Shown one piece after another: positions 35,798 through 43,433 of a stretch of 64,000 nt of DNA (the stretch's first letter is position 1; every line of letters begins with the position of its first letter). The DNA is taken from assembly GCA_947479455.1 (NCBI GenBank), contig CANJZE010000007.1:62001-126000 (forward strand), written 5' to 3'. The DNA comes from Bacteroidota bacterium (lineage in GTDB: Bacteria > Bacteroidota > Bacteroidia > Chitinophagales > LD1). The notes beneath the pieces were generated by a model. The model was given only the letters and a program-made list of their open reading frames with translations, was not told the DNA's origin and made no database searches. The position numbers were made by a program, and so were the translations under genes.

Positions 35798-37681
35798 ATG
35801 AAACAGCTTTCTACTTTTCTTTTTTTATTGTTCGCGTGCCAGCAACTGCAATCGCAATTACCCAATGGATCTTCGCGCTCATCGGTAAATCCTTATCTGT
35901 TTCCGTTTTATCATGGAGTGGCTTCGGGCGACCCGCTTGCCGACAGAGTAATTCTTTGGACGCGCATTACGCTTGATATTCCTATTGACCCCGTGTCGGT
36001 GAATTGGGAAATTGCTACCGATACATCTTTCAGCAACATCATTAATAACGGAACGGTTTCAACCGACAGCACAAGAGATTACACAATTAAAGTTGATGCA
36101 ACGGGATTGCAGCAAAGTACCTGGTACTACTATCGGTTCATTTACGATACGTTGAAATCTGTCATTGGAAGAACGCGAACACTACCTACCGGAGCGGTAA
36201 ACAATCTTCGTTTTGCCGTAGCGAGTTGTCAGGATTATCAGGATGGATTTTATAATGCGCATCGTCACCTGAGCCAACGAAATGATATTGATGCCGTTTT
36301 ATTTTTAGGTGATTACACCTATGAAAGTGGCGAGAATGTAAATGCTGTGGGCGGGCGTTTGCATGAACCAAGCAGCAAAACAATTCGGTTAAGTGATTAT
36401 AGAATTCGTCAGTCGCTCTATCATCTTGATGCTGATTTGCAAGAAGCGCATAGACAATATCCGTGGATTTGCGTATGGGACGACCATGAAACAGCAAACA
36501 ACTCTTACACCATTGGAGCAAAAAATCATGGAATAAATGATGGACCATGGTACGATAGAAAAGTAAATGGTGTTGAAACGTATGAAGAATGGATGCCCAT
36601 TCGTATGCCAGATGCGAACGACACGTTTAGGATTTTCAGACGATTTACGTGGGGAGGTTTAGCTGACTTGCACATGATTGACACGCGTTTATATGACCGC
36701 AGCAAACAAGTAACTACTGCGCAGTATATTCCTACTAACGACACAGCAATTCTTGATTCCACTCGTACCATGTTGGGTCCCGTTCAGTTAGACTGGCTCA
36801 AAAACAACTTAGACAGTTCAACAGCCCAATGGCAAATTATCGGGCAACAGGTAATCATTGCCCCTTTGATTGTGCCTGCAGGAATACTTGGACCTACCCC
36901 GGTGATAATAAATTCTGACCAATGGGATGGTTATCCTTTTGAGCGACAGAAATTGTATGACCACATACAAAGCCATAACATCAACAACGTTGTGGTCCTC
37001 ACCGGAGACATTCACACTTCCTGGGCAAATGATTTGCCGTTGAGTAATTACGATTCACTTCACCGCAATAATTCAATTGGGGTTGAATTTGTTACCCCAA
37101 GTATTTCATCGGGAAATGAGTTACCATCTTTGGTTTCGGAACCTGTTATTTATGGTCTGGCACAATTTGTTCGTTATGTTAATTTGACTTTGCATGGCTA
37201 TTACATTCTCGATATTAATACCCAGCGCACACAAGGCGATTTTGTTTACGTGAGCGATGTCACTACAAGGAATTATACGGTTAGCACAGCACCATCGTGG
37301 TATGTAAACAGTGGTGAAAAATTTTTGCGCCAAGCAGGTGCTCCTGCTGTTTCGCAGGTTAGCTATCCAACACTTGCACCTGTTACTGTTCAAAACACTT
37401 CCATTAAAAATTTAACCGACAACATCACTACAATTTCTGTTCACCCGAATCCATTTTATGACGAAGTGCTGATTCAGTTTAATTCGCAATTGCCCGAAGA
37501 AGTAACACTCGAAGTTTTTTCTTCAACAGGCAAAATAATGACGAAGAAAAGTCTTGGCATCACAAGAGAAGGGCTTAACTACGCTACGTTTAACGGAAAC
37601 AATTTTCCTTCAGGGTTTTATATGGTGGAATTAAAGGGCAATAGCCATTCGGTAGGAAAAGCAGTGATTAAAGTGAATTGA
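35798..37681 (+). CDS. phoD: PhoD-like alkaline phosphatase with type A T9SS sorting domain
   Basis: A secreted phosphodiesterase/phosphomonoesterase of the PhoD family. It has an N-terminal signal peptide, a fibronectin-like N-domain (YHGVASGDPLADRVILWTRI), then a metallophosphatase core with LGDYTYE, CVWDDHE and VVLTGDIHTSW as metal-binding motifs. The last about 80 residues (VHPNPFYDEVLIQF ... GFYMVELKGNSHSVGKAVIKVN) are a type A sorting domain, so the mature enzyme is probably on the cell surface. Phosphate scavenging is the likely role. The GH31 gene follows immediately on the same strand. Confidence 0.9.
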   Translation: MKQLSTFLFLLFACQQLQSQLPNGSSRSSVNPYLFPFYHGVASGDPLADRVILWTRITLDIPIDPVSVNWEIATDTSFSNIINNGTVSTDSTRDYTIKVDATGLQQSTWYYYRFIYDTLKSVIGRTRTLPTGAVNNLRFAVASCQDYQDGFYNAHRHLSQRNDIDAVLFLGDYTYESGENVNAVGGRLHEPSSKTIRLSDYRIRQSLYHLDADLQEAHRQYPWICVWDDHETANNSYTIGAKNHGINDGPWYDRKVNGVETYEEWMPIRMPDANDTFRIFRRFTWGGLADLHMIDTRLYDRSKQVTTAQYIPTNDTAILDSTRTMLGPVQLDWLKNNLDSSTAQWQIIGQQVIIAPLIVPAGILGPTPVIINSDQWDGYPFERQKLYDHIQSHNINNVVVLTGDIHTSWANDLPLSNYDSLHRNNSIGVEFVTPSISSGNELPSLVSEPVIYGLAQFVRYVNLTLHGYYILDINTQRTQGDFVYVSDVTTRNYTVSTAPSWYVNSGEKFLRQAGAPAVSQVSYPTLAPVTVQNTSIKNLTDNITTISVHPNPFYDEVLIQFNSQLPEEVTLEVFSSTGKIMTKKSLGITREGLNYATFNGNNFPSGFYMVELKGNSHSVGKAVIKVN

Positions 37682-37725
37682 AAAATTTTAAAATCATTAG
37701 TTTAGGAGTTCAAAAAACAAAACCC

Positions 37726-39369
37726 ATGAGAAAAGCCCTACTCTTATTCTGCGTTTTTGCTGTCAACAATTTTTTTCAAAATCATCTAAGTGCTCAAACA
37801 ACAGCATGGCCTGAATGGGTTTTTCATAATTGGGTATGGGAAGATGAGGGCACGAGACAAAGTGCGCTGCAACTTGTTGATGATTACAAAGCCCACAACA
37901 TTCCTGTAGGTGCGGTTATCATTGACAGCCCATGGGAAACCGGCTACAACACTTTCGATTGGGATTCCTCTCTTTATCCTAATCCGCAGTCGATGGTCGA
38001 TTCGTTTCATGCAAAAGATGTAAGAGTTGTTGTTTGGATTACCACTGCAATAAATACCGATATGACCGCTCTTTGGCACTATGCCGATTCGATGGGTTAT
38101 TTTATGAAAGCAAATGCAGGCTCGGGCTCGGCAGTTATAAACTGGTGGAAAGGTGACGGAAGCATGATTGATTTTTTCAATCCGGCTGCGGTAAACTGGT
38201 GGAAAGCAATGATGGATAAAACGCTTGATCTGGGTATTGACGGATGGAAATGCGATGGCACCGATTATTCCATTCTGCTGGGCAACGCTCTATATTCTCC
38301 GGGAATGGGAAGCACTGTAACGCGGTTGCAATACTCGCACGCTTACTACCGTCTGTTTTACGATTACTCCCGCCAGCGTTTGGGTAATGACCGTATCATT
38401 ATGTCGCGCCCGGTAGATAATTATGGATACACTTTTATTACCGACCCAAACTTAGTTTCGTTTACTCCGCGCGATATTGGCTTTGCTTGTTGGGTGGGTG
38501 ACCAGGATGCAACTTTTGCAGGAATGAAAAATGCGTTGAACAATATGTATCAAAGCGATGTAAATAATTACCTCGCGTTTGGGTCTGACATTGGTGGCTA
38601 TCGCGAAGAGCCCTTGCCTAACGGAAGAGCGAAAGATGTGTTTGTTCGTTGGGCGCAATTGGGTGCGTTTAGTCCGCTTATGGAAAATGGCGGTGGCGGG
38701 GAACATCGCCCGTGGATGTTTGACCAACAAACTGACAACATCTATAACAAGTTTGCGCGGTTGCATCACGCTATGGTTCCATACCTCATGCATCAGAGCG
38801 ATTCATTATTTAATGCCACCCAGTCGTTGATGCAGTTCTTCAACAGCACCGATTATCGTTTCATGCTTGGAAGTGAAATTTTTGTAGCTCCTGTATTAAG
38901 TTCTTCGAATAGCATATCGGTAAGTTTCCCTGCGGGAAGTTCATGGACTTATCTTTTCAATAATTCGCAGGTATATAATGGCGGCTCTACTTCCACATTA
39001 AATATTCCGCTTGACGAATATCCTGTTTTTATAAAATCGTCATCAACTTTATTGGCAACGCTCGATAGTGTTATAGGTAGTGTAACCGGCATAGAAACGG
39101 TAATTACTCAGGCGAATACAATTACATTGTATCCAAATCCTGCAACAGAAGAAGTTTATGTTTCCGGCTTACAGTTTAATGCAAATGAAGAATACGACTT
39201 CTGCTTGTTTGATGTGCTCGGAAGAAATTTATTGAAGACACACCTAAGCAGTAAAAACGAAAAAGTTGCACTCAAAGATTTTGCGAACGGAGTTTACTAT
39301 TACACCATTGGGAGTTCAAATTTTTCTGCTACGAGAAAAATTTCGGGGAAGGTGGTAATGCAGAAATAG
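37726..39369 (+). CDS. glycoside hydrolase family 31 protein with type A T9SS sorting domain
   Basis: A secreted alpha-glucosidase/alpha-xylosidase-type enzyme. After the signal peptide, the (beta/alpha)8 core shows the nucleophile Asp177 in IDGWKCDGTDYS and the acid/base region around Asp288 in FGSDIGGYREEP. It lacks the large N-terminal beta-sandwich of typical GH31 enzymes, being only 547 residues, so activity is unproven. The C-terminus is a type A sorting domain (LYPNPATEEVYV ... SGKVVMQK). The ATG at 37726 is chosen. Its last codons and stop are part of a 47-base repeat that recurs 764 bases downstream. Confidence 0.85.
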   Translation: MRKALLLFCVFAVNNFFQNHLSAQTTAWPEWVFHNWVWEDEGTRQSALQLVDDYKAHNIPVGAVIIDSPWETGYNTFDWDSSLYPNPQSMVDSFHAKDVRVVVWITTAINTDMTALWHYADSMGYFMKANAGSGSAVINWWKGDGSMIDFFNPAAVNWWKAMMDKTLDLGIDGWKCDGTDYSILLGNALYSPGMGSTVTRLQYSHAYYRLFYDYSRQRLGNDRIIMSRPVDNYGYTFITDPNLVSFTPRDIGFACWVGDQDATFAGMKNALNNMYQSDVNNYLAFGSDIGGYREEPLPNGRAKDVFVRWAQLGAFSPLMENGGGGEHRPWMFDQQTDNIYNKFARLHHAMVPYLMHQSDSLFNATQSLMQFFNSTDYRFMLGSEIFVAPVLSSSNSISVSFPAGSSWTYLFNNSQVYNGGSTSTLNIPLDEYPVFIKSSSTLLATLDSVIGSVTGIETVITQANTITLYPNPATEEVYVSGLQFNANEEYDFCLFDVLGRNLLKTHLSSKNEKVALKDFANGVYYYTIGSSNFSATRKISGKVVMQK

Positions 39370-39378
39370 GGTCGAGGA
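39332..39378. repeat. 47-base direct repeat, left copy
   Basis: The sequence from cgagaaaaatttcgg to tcgagga. It covers the last 12 codons of the GH31 gene, its stop and 9 bases beyond. It matches 40096-40142 at 43 of 47 positions; the mismatches are at 39357, 39358, 39373 and 39376. Together the copies flank a toxin-antitoxin module. Confidence 0.9.
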
Positions 39379-39418
39379 AAACTTGAGATTTTATCGGTAA
39401 GCAACAACTATTTTTCGT

Positions 39419-39426
39419 TACTTTTG
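39419..39426 (+). promoter_or_regulatory. possible -7 element of the toxin-antitoxin module
   Basis: TACTTTTG fits the Bacteroidota -7 box TAnnTTTG exactly and ends 22 bases before the antitoxin ATG. It lies inside the inserted segment, so the module may carry its own promoter. A -33 TTTG at the right spacing was not found. Confidence 0.4.
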
Positions 39427-39448
39427 GTAAATAAAAATTGACAAGACA

Positions 39449-39655
39449 ATGCTAATTGAACGCACAAACAATAATCAAATAACCATTACGGTTTCATCAT
39501 CGGTTGACAGTTTTGGATTGCAACGACTGATTGATTATGTAAAATATTTAGAAGCAACAGCAAAGAGTAAAGCGAAGCAATCGGACATAAACAAACTTGC
39601 TGACGAGGTGAACGCCTCTTGGTGGGCAAAGAACCGTAAACGTTTTATCAAGTGA
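39449..39655 (+). CDS. antitoxin of a PIN-domain toxin-antitoxin pair
   Basis: A 68-residue protein with an N-terminal beta-strand region (RTNNNQITITVSSSVDSFGLQRLIDYVKYLE) and a charged helical C-terminus ending WWAKNRKRFIK. The size, the charge pattern and the GTGA overlap with the downstream PIN gene fit a type II antitoxin whose C-terminal part wraps the toxin. No DNA-binding fold is certain. It lies within the segment bounded by the 47-base direct repeats. Confidence 0.75.
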   Translation: MLIERTNNNQITITVSSSVDSFGLQRLIDYVKYLEATAKSKAKQSDINKLADEVNASWWAKNRKRFIK

Positions 39656-40089
39656 AAATAATTGTTGATGCCAACATTGTTTTTAGCGGCATACTGAACG
39701 CCAACGGAAAGATTGGCGACCTTCTTATCAACTCAAAAAAGCATTTTGACTTTATCGCCCCACATTTTTTACGGGGAGAAATCTACAAACACTATCCACG
39801 GCTAAGTAAAATTTCGGGAATGAGTATTGAGCACGTTAGAGAAGCGGAATTTCAAATTTGTAAGGACATCACTTTTATTTCAGAAGAACAAATTAAAGCG
39901 GCAACATGGGTAGCAGCAGAAAAATTAGTTGCAGATATTGACCCTAAAGACACGCACTATATTGCTTACTCAAAACATTTTAGATGCAAAATTTGGAGTG
40001 GCGACAAGCAACTAATCAAAGGACTTGCGAAAAAGGGATTTATAAATTTTACTTCAACTGATGAACTTTTTTTATTAAGAGAACAATAA
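39652..40089 (+). CDS. PIN-domain toxin (VapC-like endoribonuclease)
   Basis: A 145-residue PIN-domain protein. Acidic residues in the expected places are Asp6 (IIVDANIVFSG), Glu43 (RGEIYKHY), Asp97 and Asp100 (ADIDPKDTHYIA), and Asp118 (IWSGDKQL). Members cleave tRNA, rRNA or mRNA when freed from antitoxin. The start is GTG at 39652, overlapping the antitoxin stop. The pair is bracketed by 47-base direct repeats. The cognate RNA target is unknown. Confidence 0.85.
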   Translation: MKIIVDANIVFSGILNANGKIGDLLINSKKHFDFIAPHFLRGEIYKHYPRLSKISGMSIEHVREAEFQICKDITFISEEQIKAATWVAAEKLVADIDPKDTHYIAYSKHFRCKIWSGDKQLIKGLAKKGFINFTSTDELFLLREQ

Positions 40090-40095
40090 AGTCTT

Positions 40096-40142
40096 CGAGA
40101 AAAATTTCGGGGAAGGTGGTTGTGCAGAAATAGGGTTGAAGA
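40096..40142. repeat. 47-base direct repeat, right copy
   Basis: Matches 39332-39378 at 43 of 47 positions. It would encode RKISGKVVVQK and a stop, with a Val where the intact GH31 protein has Met, a plausible end of a type A sorting domain but detached from any gene. Confidence 0.9.
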
Positions 40143-40154
40143 TGCCTTCACGCT

Positions 40155-40195
40155 AAACGTTCCAATTCTTTAAGAAGTGGAACGTTTGTTTTTTT
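40155..40195 (+). terminator. intrinsic terminator downstream of the toxin-antitoxin unit
   Basis: A perfect ten-pair stem AAACGTTCCA/TGGAACGTTT with a short interrupted inner stem and GTTTTTTT after it. It is plus-strand directed. It lies 13 bases beyond the right repeat, where the GH31 terminator would have been before insertion. Confidence 0.85.
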
Positions 40196-41453
40196 ACCGC
40201 ATCACATCATACCGCTGCGTATCGAGCCGTATGAAAATGAAAAGCAACACGGTGAATGAGAGAAGCGATGAACCACCATAGCTGATAAACGGAAGTGGAA
40301 TGCCGATAACCGGTGCTACGCCAATTGCCATTCCTACATTAATGAGAAAATGAAAGAAGAGAATACTCGCTACGCAATAACCATACACACGGCTGAATTT
40401 GGAGCGTTGCCGCTCGGCTAAATAAAGCAGGCGGTAAAAAAAGCCGAGGAAAAGAATAATCAGAATAGCGCTCCCAACGAAACCAAACTCTTCGCCAATT
40501 GAACTGAAAATAAAATCGGTGCTTTGCTCTGGAACAAATTTCAGTTTCGTTTGCGTGCCGTTTAAATATCCTTTGCCAATAAATCCTCCAGAGCCAATAG
40601 CGATAATAGATTGACGAATGTTCCAGTCTTTTCCGGTTTCTACTTCTTTACCCAACAATACATTAATACGGTCCCGCTGATGCGGTTTCATTTTTTTGAA
40701 AGCAAAGTCAACAGAGAAAACAAAACTTGATGCAACAACCCACAAACCCAAAATAATTAAAGCGAGTTTTTTGTTTCTCCGCAAAAAATAAATAGCGATG
40801 AGTGAAGCCGCTAACAACACACCCGCCAGAATAAATTTATTGACAAGCAGCGCGAGCACACCAAGCACAGCTATCGATGCACCAATGATGAGATAGTAAG
40901 ATTCTAATCCTTCACGAAACAAAACAAGTGCAAGCGCCACAAACACAATAGCAGAACCTGCATCGCCCTGTATTAAAACAATAAGCACCGGAATACCAAT
41001 GATAGCAAACACGCGCCATTTGTCTTTCCATTTTCGTATATCCACATTTAAGCCCGAAAGAAATTTTGCCAAAGCTAAACTCACCGCAAACTTTGCCATT
41101 TCGCTCGGCTGCATTTGAAAACTACCTATGCGAATCCAGTTACGTTGCCCTTTCACTTCCACACCTACAAACATTACAAGTACCACAAATAGCATGAGCA
41201 AAACAAAGAAGACGTATGAGAATGTGGTATAAAATCTGGAGTCAACAATTAAGATAATTGCAGCAAGAACAAGAGAAGCAAGAATCCATTGAAATTGTTT
41301 CCCGCTGTTAATGCTCGAATCGAAAATGCTTTTTTCATCGCCCGAGTAAGAGGAGGAATAAATTACCACCCAACCCAAAATCACCAACACACCATAAAAA
41401 ATTATAGTGAGCCAATCTATTTTTCCCGTAAGAGATTCTTGCTTGCGAGCCAT
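40194..41453 (-). CDS. rodA: rod shape-determining protein RodA (SEDS glycosyltransferase)
   Basis: Polymerises lipid II into glycan strands with PBP2 during cell elongation. It is a multi-spanning SEDS protein with KGQRNWIRIGSFQMQPSEMAKFA, the signature loop WNIRQSIIAIGSGGFIGKGYLNGTQTKL, and FIFSSIGEEFGFVG. The 420-residue length fits. The ATG at 41453 is chosen; the frame opens at 41492. It is the last gene of the mreB-mreC-mreD-PBP2-rodA operon. Its stop is next to the terminator at 40155-40195, which points the other way. Confidence 0.93.
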   Translation of the reverse strand: MARKQESLTGKIDWLTIIFYGVLVILGWVVIYSSSYSGDEKSIFDSSINSGKQFQWILASLVLAAIILIVDSRFYTTFSYVFFVLLMLFVVLVMFVGVEVKGQRNWIRIGSFQMQPSEMAKFAVSLALAKFLSGLNVDIRKWKDKWRVFAIIGIPVLIVLIQGDAGSAIVFVALALVLFREGLESYYLIIGASIAVLGVLALLVNKFILAGVLLAASLIAIYFLRRNKKLALIILGLWVVASSFVFSVDFAFKKMKPHQRDRINVLLGKEVETGKDWNIRQSIIAIGSGGFIGKGYLNGTQTKLKFVPEQSTDFIFSSIGEEFGFVGSAILIILFLGFFYRLLYLAERQRSKFSRVYGYCVASILFFHFLINVGMAIGVAPVIGIPLPFISYGGSSLLSFTVLLFIFIRLDTQRYDVMR

Positions 41454-41472
41454 GTAATATGTAAGATATAAA

Positions 41473-41513
41473 ATTGAATATTGAATACACAAAGCGGCTG
41501 TTCAATATTCAAT
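41473..41513. repeat. 13-base inverted repeat between PBP2 and rodA
   Basis: Perfect arms ATTGAATATTGAA (41473-41485) and TTCAATATTCAAT (41501-41513) with a 15-base spacer, in the 84-base gap between the PBP2 stop and the rodA ATG. It could form a hairpin in the operon mRNA and adjust rodA expression, or be a remnant of a dispersed repeat. Confidence 0.7.
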
Positions 41514-41537
41514 CTGCAATTTTAATTCTTCAATTTC

Positions 41538-43433
41538 CTACTCTTCTCCTTCCTCCTTCATGCCCGCGCTCTTGTTCGTTTGCACACCATACTTGCTTAG
41601 CAAATTTGTTTCAATCATTCTCTTCTCAATAGGCAAACGCTTGGTTGCAATGGTATCGTTCAAATATTTTTCAACCAGCAAGCTGGCAATAGGTGCGGCA
41701 TACGTTGAACCATAACCACCGTTTTCAACCACCACGGCAATAGCAATTTTAGCTTCATCCTTTGGGGCAAAGCCCGCGAACATGGAGTGATTATCTCCAT
41801 GAGGATTTTGTGCCGTTCCGGTTTTGCCACATAAAGTAATGCCTTCAACACGGGCAGCTTTTGCCGTTCCTGCTTCCACTACTTCAAACAAACCTTCAAT
41901 CACCGGAATGAAATGTTCTTTATCAATCAATGCAGTGTGCTTTTCGTATTCGTGTGTAACATCTTTATTAGAAACAGGGTCAGTAATTTTTTTGACGATG
42001 TGCGGTGTAATCCAGTAACCATGATTACTGATGCAAGCAAAAATATTTGCCATTTGTAGAGGAGTGGTCAATACTTCGCCTTGTCCAATTCCTAACGAAA
42101 CAATGGTGGCAAACTTCCATCGGTTGGCGCCATAAATTTTATCGAAATAATTTACCGTAGGAATATTGCCGCGCACTTCGCTTGGCAAATCAATTCCTGT
42201 TTTTATTCCCAAACCAAAACTGTGGCAAATGTTAACCCACTTGTCGTATGACTGTGCTGTACTCATACCCGCATTTTTCTCCAGCGAATTTTTAAACGTT
42301 TGGCAGAAATATGGATTGCATGATTGCGCTAACGCATATTGAATATTGGTTGGTGAAGGGTGTTTGTGCGAGCAATGCACAATGACCCCCCCCGCGTTAT
42401 ACGCCTGATTGCATGGGTAGCTGTAATTAATTCCCTGCACCCCTTCATGCAATGCAATCAGGGCAACAATTGGTTTAAACGAAGAGCCAGGAGGATAAGT
42501 AGCCAACGTAGGTCGCGAATACAAAGGCAACAACGAATCGGTTAGGAGTGCATTGAAATTTTTTCCGCGCACTGCACCGCACAATAAATTGGGGTCGTAA
42601 CCGGGGCTACTCACCAGGGCCAAAATTTCACCTGTGCTTGGTTCAATAGCCACCACGCTTCCCTTTTTGTTTTGCATCAATTGCTCTGCGTACTCTTGTA
42701 GTTTTATATCAAGTGTAGCAATTACGTTATCGCCCGAAATTGCCAGCGTATCAAATTCGCCATTGTTGAACGAACCCATTTCGCGATTGTGTACATCCAC
42801 AAAAACTAATTTCTTTCCGCGTCTACCACCCAACTCTTTTTCATATACCTTTTCAATGCCGCTTTTGCCCACATAATCACCGGGCTTGTAATAACCTGCA
42901 GATGTTTCAATTTGTTTTTCGCTCACCTCACCAATATCGCCAAGAATAGTGGCAGCCACCCGATGCGGATATTTTCGGATAGTTCGAACTTGCCCATAGA
43001 AACCGCGAAAGAGATATAACGATTCTTGCAGGCGCGAATAATCGCGCAGCGAAAGTTGCTTCATAAAAACATTCGGCTTGTACCTGGAAAATCCTTTTGT
43101 CTTCGGCAGATCTTTAAATTGCTTTACACACTCCTCTTTTGTTTTGCCTAATAGTTCTGCCAATTTCGCGGTGTCAATTTCTTTGGCCTGACGCGGAATT
43201 ATCATCAAATCGTAAATAGCTTCGTTGTAAACAATCAGTTCTCCTACGCGGTCATATACCATTCCGCGTGTTGGGTAAATATCCAACTCTTTAATGGCAT
43301 TGTTCTTTGCAAGCGAAACATATTTACTGTCAACCACCTGCAAATAAAAAAGGCGTAACAAAAAAACCACCGCAAAAAATGCAATGATGATTTGAATAAC
43401 CTGGTGGCGATTTTTGAAAAGGTCTTTGTTCAC
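41538..43433 (-). CDS. mrdA: penicillin-binding protein 2 (elongasome transpeptidase)
   Basis: The class B PBP that crosslinks peptidoglycan in the lateral wall. One N-terminal membrane segment (VIQIIIAFFAVVFLLRLFYLQVV) anchors a pedestal domain and the transpeptidase domain. Active-site motifs: SxxK with Ser317 and Lys320 (YPPGSSFKPI), SxN in ALAQSCNPYF, and KTG in LCGKTGTAQN. The 631-residue length is typical. The start is GTG at 43433. It sits between mreD (13 bases) and rodA in the operon. Confidence 0.95.
   Translation of the reverse strand: MNKDLFKNRHQVIQIIIAFFAVVFLLRLFYLQVVDSKYVSLAKNNAIKELDIYPTRGMVYDRVGELIVYNEAIYDLMIIPRQAKEIDTAKLAELLGKTKEECVKQFKDLPKTKGFSRYKPNVFMKQLSLRDYSRLQESLYLFRGFYGQVRTIRKYPHRVAATILGDIGEVSEKQIETSAGYYKPGDYVGKSGIEKVYEKELGGRRGKKLVFVDVHNREMGSFNNGEFDTLAISGDNVIATLDIKLQEYAEQLMQNKKGSVVAIEPSTGEILALVSSPGYDPNLLCGAVRGKNFNALLTDSLLPLYSRPTLATYPPGSSFKPIVALIALHEGVQGINYSYPCNQAYNAGGVIVHCSHKHPSPTNIQYALAQSCNPYFCQTFKNSLEKNAGMSTAQSYDKWVNICHSFGLGIKTGIDLPSEVRGNIPTVNYFDKIYGANRWKFATIVSLGIGQGEVLTTPLQMANIFACISNHGYWITPHIVKKITDPVSNKDVTHEYEKHTALIDKEHFIPVIEGLFEVVEAGTAKAARVEGITLCGKTGTAQNPHGDNHSMFAGFAPKDEAKIAIAVVVENGGYGSTYAAPIASLLVEKYLNDTIATKRLPIEKRMIETNLLSKYGVQTNKSAGMKEEGEE

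Follow-up and report, generated by a model that had tools for sequence, protein, structure and literature searches.

A predicted toxin–antitoxin (TA) pair lies at the 3′ end of a GH31 glycoside hydrolase gene in a Bacteroidota genome, enclosed by two copies of that gene end. The same site is empty in two congeners, comparable duplications surround related TA pairs elsewhere, the unit carries no recombinase gene, and the repeats at different loci have no sequence in common. Our preferred explanation, to which we assign a probability of roughly 60%, is that a self-promoted TA pair was inserted at the GH31 3′ end by a long target duplication, and that in some cases of this kind a gene end was imported together with the pair. 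The features of the locus in the window, i.e. the whole 64-kb stretch of DNA that was analysed, are as follows.

37678–39369, + strand: gene for a GH31 glycoside hydrolase with a T9SS type A sorting domain (ORF; PF01055, PF21365, PF18962; TIGR04183)
39329–39378, + strand: left (gene-attached) repeat copy, consisting of the last 13 GH31 codons including the stop, and 9 nt
39409–39448, + strand: upstream stretch conserved in some TA relatives (TA units begin to resemble one another no more than 40 nt ahead of the antitoxin gene)
39449–39655, + strand: antitoxin candidate, 68 aa (4-nt overlap with the toxin gene)
39652–40089, + strand: PIN_2 (VapC-like) predicted toxin, 145 aa (PF10130, E 2e-25)
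40093–40142, + strand: right (orphan) copy of the GH31 end, adjoining the native downstream flank
about 40154–40196, + strand: the original rho-independent terminator of GH31, parted from the gene by the insert (fold; equal position in two congeners)
40194–41492, − strand: rodA (FtsW/RodA/SpoVE), convergent neighbour (Pfam; also after GH31 in the empty-site genomes)

The 3′ end of the GH31 gene is the duplicated target. The direct repeat is 50 nt long, its copies being 45/50 identical (90%) at a spacing of 764 nt. This confirms the original prediction, made from the letters of the sequence, of a repeat 764 bases downstream; the 43/47 identity given there is the inner part of the 45/50. The two copies share an identical 23-nt core that is absent elsewhere in the window (0 in 100 shuffles), and even when up to 3 mismatches are allowed it occurs at only these two places in the 3.76-Mb genome. 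The idea that the incoming sequence came from a paralogous sorting domain of the same genome is contradicted by this uniqueness.

As had been predicted, the antitoxin and the PIN toxin are the only two plausible genes between the repeat copies; the remaining ORFs of at least 30 aa are short and overlap them. No integrase or recombinase gene was found between the copies. Five inverted-repeat pairs were found in 38800–40700, none of them placed at the two ends of the unit. The tRNA search gave no hit anywhere in the window, nor did the Rfam family search of 38000–42000. The unit resembles type II TA systems of the VapBC class in that a small antitoxin gene and a PIN toxin gene overlap, in its promoter-like upstream stretch and in its conserved acidic residues, but here a PIN_2 toxin is combined with an antitoxin candidate that matched none of the Pfam, NCBIfam or PADLOC models. 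The predicted fold of the antitoxin candidate is of low confidence (pLDDT 65). Its relatives were observed to adjoin PIN_2 toxins in other Bacteroidota. In the predicted toxin, D6, E43, D97, D100 and D118 are invariant in an alignment of ten; its profile matched no solved structure, and the search for carriage on mobile replicons gave no phage match and one distant plasmid match with 31% identity. Within the upstream stretch, TACTTTTG is located at 39419–39426, which we take to match the TAnnTTTG −7 element of Bacteroidota promoters.

The hairpin and T run 3′ of the right copy have a folding energy of −16.5 kcal/mol (z −3.6, fold versus shuffles), and this hairpin is missing from the list of a simple terminator scan. 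Four further contigs of this genome were observed to contain it as well, over 25–36 bases at 88–96% identity. The repeat copies themselves are not strong hairpins: the left one folds no better than shuffles, and the right one somewhat better, with 11/200 shuffles as good.

The state of the locus before insertion was sought in 149 genomes, comprising the window's own and 148 relatives, with a cut-off of E 1e-30. A GH31 relative was present in 25/149 genomes (own included), and five congeners gave a full-length match. In two of these, G015 and G004, the GH31 gene is followed by a single gene end, the hairpin and rodA (93% protein identity), and there is no TA pair within the 11 kb examined. In the other three, G016, G001 and G017, no rodA was found within the 12 kb retrieved, making them uninformative on the insertion site; none of the five has a TA pair in its GH31 stretch. 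The empty-site order in G015 and G004 therefore identifies the 764 bases as an insertion and the terminator as that of GH31. It bears out two proposals of the original prediction, namely that a unit lacking a recombinase gene was inserted at a gene end and left the gene complete, and that the strong terminator behind the right copy once ended the GH31 transcript, the hairpin standing at the same place in both congeners. A third proposal is reversed by these relatives. The Met-to-Val difference between the copies had been regarded as a change in the right repeat; however, G015 and G004 both encode Val where the gene-attached copy has Met. Judging from this alignment, Val is likely ancestral and was retained by the orphan copy.

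The arrangement recurs among relatives of the TA pair. A toxin-profile scan of genome contigs from 421 relatives gave 80 loci that could be scored, one of 81 being too short. About 700 bases before the antitoxin were aligned to about 500 bases after the toxin, and a score of at least 40 was taken as a repeat. A repeat surrounds the pair in 24/80 scored loci including the window, i.e. in 23/79 without it, whereas only 21 of 1,379 shifted windows of equal geometry from the same loci reach a score of 40 (1.5%). The other 56 of the 80 loci have no repeat at this score. With the looser score of 34, the numbers are 27 loci and 30 shifted windows. One of the 24 positives, L095, is the locus of the congener G011, the repeat of which was known before the scan. 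By self-BLAST the toxin is enclosed by a repeat pair in 22/81 loci, as compared with a mean of 2.4 and a maximum of 6 in 2,000 trials of random placement. Thus 23/79 loci bear out the expectation that other TA pairs would stand between copies of adjacent sequence, in many cases of gene ends. Pairs with a HigB toxin (PF09907) show a weaker enrichment under the same scoring, with 5/60 against 20/901, and 8/60 are enclosed by self-BLAST against a random-placement mean of 1.45. This sample covered 60 of the 75 places above the cut-off, omitting the G012 unit (whose repeat was already known), G029, one of G070 and the twelve weakest. In L207, among the eight HigB positives, the repeat resembles by eye the end of a second HigA-like gene, and may be a tandem paralogue. 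A recurrent process probably places the PIN_2 TA family, and more weakly others, beside unrelated genes in Bacteroidota.

Could such repeats arise by coincidence or from assembly, through strain mixtures in metagenome bins or repeat-rich hypervariable regions? The window's genome is assembled in 70 contigs, and the 80 loci are for the most part from metagenome-assembled genomes. However, the shifted windows and the random placements stand far below the observed counts, and two (L143 and L161) of the ten loci that belong to named strains by their record titles carry the repeat. An artefact is thus a very improbable explanation.

The repeats of the 24 loci are 33–320 bp long and 80–100% identical. 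No similarity between loci was found among the 24 repeat pairs (blastn, E 1e-3), and there is no common att core. Homology between TA units, as listed for 37 loci, begins no more than 40 nt ahead of the antitoxin and ends within 14 nt after the toxin stop. Since it is limited to the unit, the moving core shows no sign of shared end sequences in these 37 loci. A gene could be assigned to the repeat in 11/24 cases, mostly an ordinary gene, and the other 13 repeats are intergenic or without an assigned gene. The duplicated 3′ ends belong to GH31 and, by Pfam, to a transketolase-type (PDH E1 beta-like) gene, a thiolase, an acyl-CoA-synthetase-like ATP-grasp protein, a pseudouridine synthase, an ABC-F-like ATPase, a DEAD helicase and SOD; three further cases are duplicated 5′ ends, of SCO1, a methyltransferase and RtcB. 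In all 11 assigned cases one copy completes an intact gene, with the proviso that assignment required an intact ORF at the repeat and broken-gene cases would be missed.

The repeats also decide against the proposal that T9SS sorting-domain codons are the target. No T9SS sorting domain was found by Pfam in the assignable genes of the ten other cases, which are for the most part housekeeping genes. The three gene-start duplications, the lack of an assignable gene in about half of the 24 repeats and the absence of a shared repeat sequence contradict it as well. Only at L105 does a C-terminal sequence seem, by eye, to resemble a T9SS type B tail.

A gene end that is restored on insertion is also what a site-specific element would leave, if moved by a tyrosine recombinase acting in trans in the manner of islands at tRNA 3′ ends or of integron cassettes. 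The terminator-type repeats of G011, arrayed with several TA-like genes, agree with such an element. We nevertheless hold it to be improbable, considering the repeat lengths, the missing common sequence and the lack of a strong hairpin in the window copies. In addition, the window unit contains TA genes only and has no integrase gene, in which it differs from elements of the tRNA-island type. A transposon or insertion sequence differs from the unit in two respects, since the duplications here are long and variable and no terminal inverted repeats stand at the unit ends.

In the G011 array, the TA pair is situated behind infB, between terminator-hairpin copies and together with DUF433-like and HigA-like genes (named by eye). 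Further copies of the hairpin follow an oxidoreductase-like gene nearby and accompany small antitoxin-like genes in a second contig. Allowing up to 3 mismatches, this dispersed terminator has 6 copies in G011 and 1 in G006, and none in G000, G012 or G014. At L082/L079 (G011 C212), antitoxin-like small genes are parted by near-identical terminator hairpins in a cassette-like array. The region behind infB is perhaps a hot spot; in G014 no TA gene was seen by eye within 900 bases behind infB. As side observations, differing TA genes occupy this stretch in G011 (L054 5300–6800) and G006 (L058/L084), and in G006 an antitoxin-like stretch on the opposite strand comes after HigBA. In G012, a HigBA unit (L055 756–1575) is bracketed by a 39-base direct repeat (79%) and followed by the same PIN pair as in G011; the contig ends 24 bases past the toxin stop.

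Repeat pairs other than the focal ones were also inspected in these loci. Among the non-focal pairs of at least 80% identity, 7/22 have TA, nuclease or defence-like genes between their copies, as identified by Pfam (RES-Xre with HNH, Gp49, PIN, ParE, AAA_15 with DUF4435, HEPN and DUF559), 20/36 ORF entries having been scanned. None of the 10 scanned control ORFs is of this kind, and four of the ten have no match at all; this control is small (10 of 20 random ORFs), and the loci themselves were selected for TA genes. In Mucilaginibacter arboris (L134 6520–9536), RES-Xre TA genes and an HNH nuclease gene lie between direct repeats of about 297 bases (93%), and at L124 927–3204 an AAA_15 ATPase and DUF4435 pair, which is defence-like, is flanked by 40-base direct repeats.

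If the target were simply duplicated, the orphan copy, being free to drift, would be expected to be the changed one. The direction of change was examined in four of the 24 cases: the window (2 relatives), L088 (6 of 11 retrieved), L143 (5) and L097 (4). In the window, with 3–4 informative sites, the discordant sites match the orphan by 3:0 in both relatives, so that the change lies in the gene-attached copy. In L088, the orphan is favoured by 8:3, 9:2 and 10:2 in the three nearest relatives; among three further, more distant relatives the ratio is 8:4 for the orphan once and 5:5 twice. At about the repeat start, the L088 gene drops in identity to the two relatives nearest to it, from 0.90–0.93 to 0.79–0.85, although identity windows of 0.77–0.82 are also found mid-gene. 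A His is present in the gene-attached copy of L088 only, four of five aligned relatives having Ala and the fifth Leu; one amino-acid change, from Arg to Ser, is peculiar to the orphan. In L143 the polarity is the opposite, the gene-attached copy being native-like and the orphan changed (8:2, 7:2, 6:2, 9:1 and 4:2 in the five relatives). L097 gives 5:2 with its nearest relative and mixed results with the three others.

Mismatches in the coding part are distributed over codon positions as 25/18/58 in the 12/24 cases with an assignable frame, the frame of L105 being that of a short ORF. The third-position share of 57% greatly exceeds 33%, yet does not clearly exceed the approximately 50% that a constrained gene copy and a drifting orphan would give together. 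Because that mixture alone accounts for such a share, the codon-position skew is weak support for a foreign origin and no proof of it.

These polarities bear on pure target duplication, in which a staggered break or paired nicks 33–320 nt apart were filled in and a TA fragment was captured, both copies deriving from the recipient and differing by later mutation only. The variable length of the repeats and their lack of common sequence are consistent with this, and so are the polarity of L143 and the stop codons contained in the orphan copies of L159 and L144. In the window and L088, however, it is the coding copy that has changed. Furthermore, Ku had no match in 18/18 genomes of the genus, the own genome included and 13 of them at least 90% complete, which makes classical end-joining unlikely there. 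On balance, we regard duplication alone as rather unlikely. That at least some insertions brought in a diverged gene end joined to the TA pair has about even odds, going by the sequence comparisons above. Such an import fits recombination guided by the gene end, and fill-in with end joining fits less, given that Ku had no match in these 18 genomes.

Our preferred explanation, insertion with a long target duplication and import in some cases, can be pictured as follows. A minimal type II TA pair, composed of an antitoxin and a PIN_2 RNase-type toxin, would have entered at the GH31 3′ end. The gene end is now present in duplicate, with the intact one on GH31 and the orphan one beside the native terminator, and no gene is disabled by the insertion. 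In some cases the pair may have come in as foreign DNA already fused to the gene end of a related species. On one side the imported gene end would recombine by homology, and on the other side the DNA would be joined ahead of the resident gene end. Such a route would be a one-ended homologous or circle-type RecA recombination, not a transposition. Addiction, which like toxicity is presumed here, would select against loss of the pair through recombination between the repeats.

Insertion with a long and variable target duplication has been described for restriction-modification (RM) systems, according to passages in PMC3874152, PMC1643837 and PMC3031569, through which Nobusato et al. 2000 and Furuta et al. 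2010 are known to us as its sources. The likeness, as far as these passages tell, lies in an addiction-type unit without mobility genes of its own, a direct duplication that is long (around 100 bp) and variable, and a direct-repeat state able to excise or amplify. The RM systems differ in their cargo, which in the window is a TA pair with a toxin of an RNase-type family rather than a DNA endonuclease. The class represented by the window also differs in belonging to Bacteroidota, in recurring within one family and in that some copies are seemingly imported. For RM systems, two links to mobility and rearrangements are proposed in the part of PMC3031569 consulted, one of them being that the restriction enzyme breaks DNA. 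A 2009 TA review cites the same RM work, in the passage seen, with regard to how mobile these systems appear to be (PMC2654758). In natural transformation, homology-facilitated illegitimate recombination and the formation of interchromatid merodiploids, in the parts of PMC3240628 and PMC3784515 consulted, likewise involve homology-guided integration of short fragments, after which a duplication or a foreign joint is left; merodiploids are described there as approximately 100–900 kb (PMC3784515), and the likeness to the window's insert is one of geometry alone.

The insertion pattern is one known from RM systems, of which the window presents a variant with a different cargo. The suggestion that the unit might belong to an undescribed family of small passive TA cassettes stands in so far as a recurring class exists; the word "undescribed" has to be qualified, given the RM precedent as reported in PMC3874152 and PMC1643837. 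Among the titles and abstracts searched, there was no report of insertion with long target duplication for TA pairs, and no paper was found on PIN toxins, Bacteroidetes and direct repeats in combination; the primary RM papers being known via citing passages, priority is not established.

By what route small TA pairs pass from one chromosome to another, with no transposase, is a question that has long been open. The PIN_2 TA family carries insertion scars often enough (23/79 besides the window) for this question to be studied statistically, and the two gene-end copies record the donor and the recipient of the DNA, by which the mechanism becomes testable from sequence alone. The occurrence of the same mode with a PIN toxin of the RNase type suggests that the cargo need not cleave DNA. 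More tentatively, and with the odds in our estimate against it, TA pairs of the PIN_2 family may be recombinase-free travelling cassettes, each moving with a host gene end. If this were true, the imported end would replace that of the recipient and displace the native one, homology would guide the insertion, and addiction would hold the harmless insert in place.
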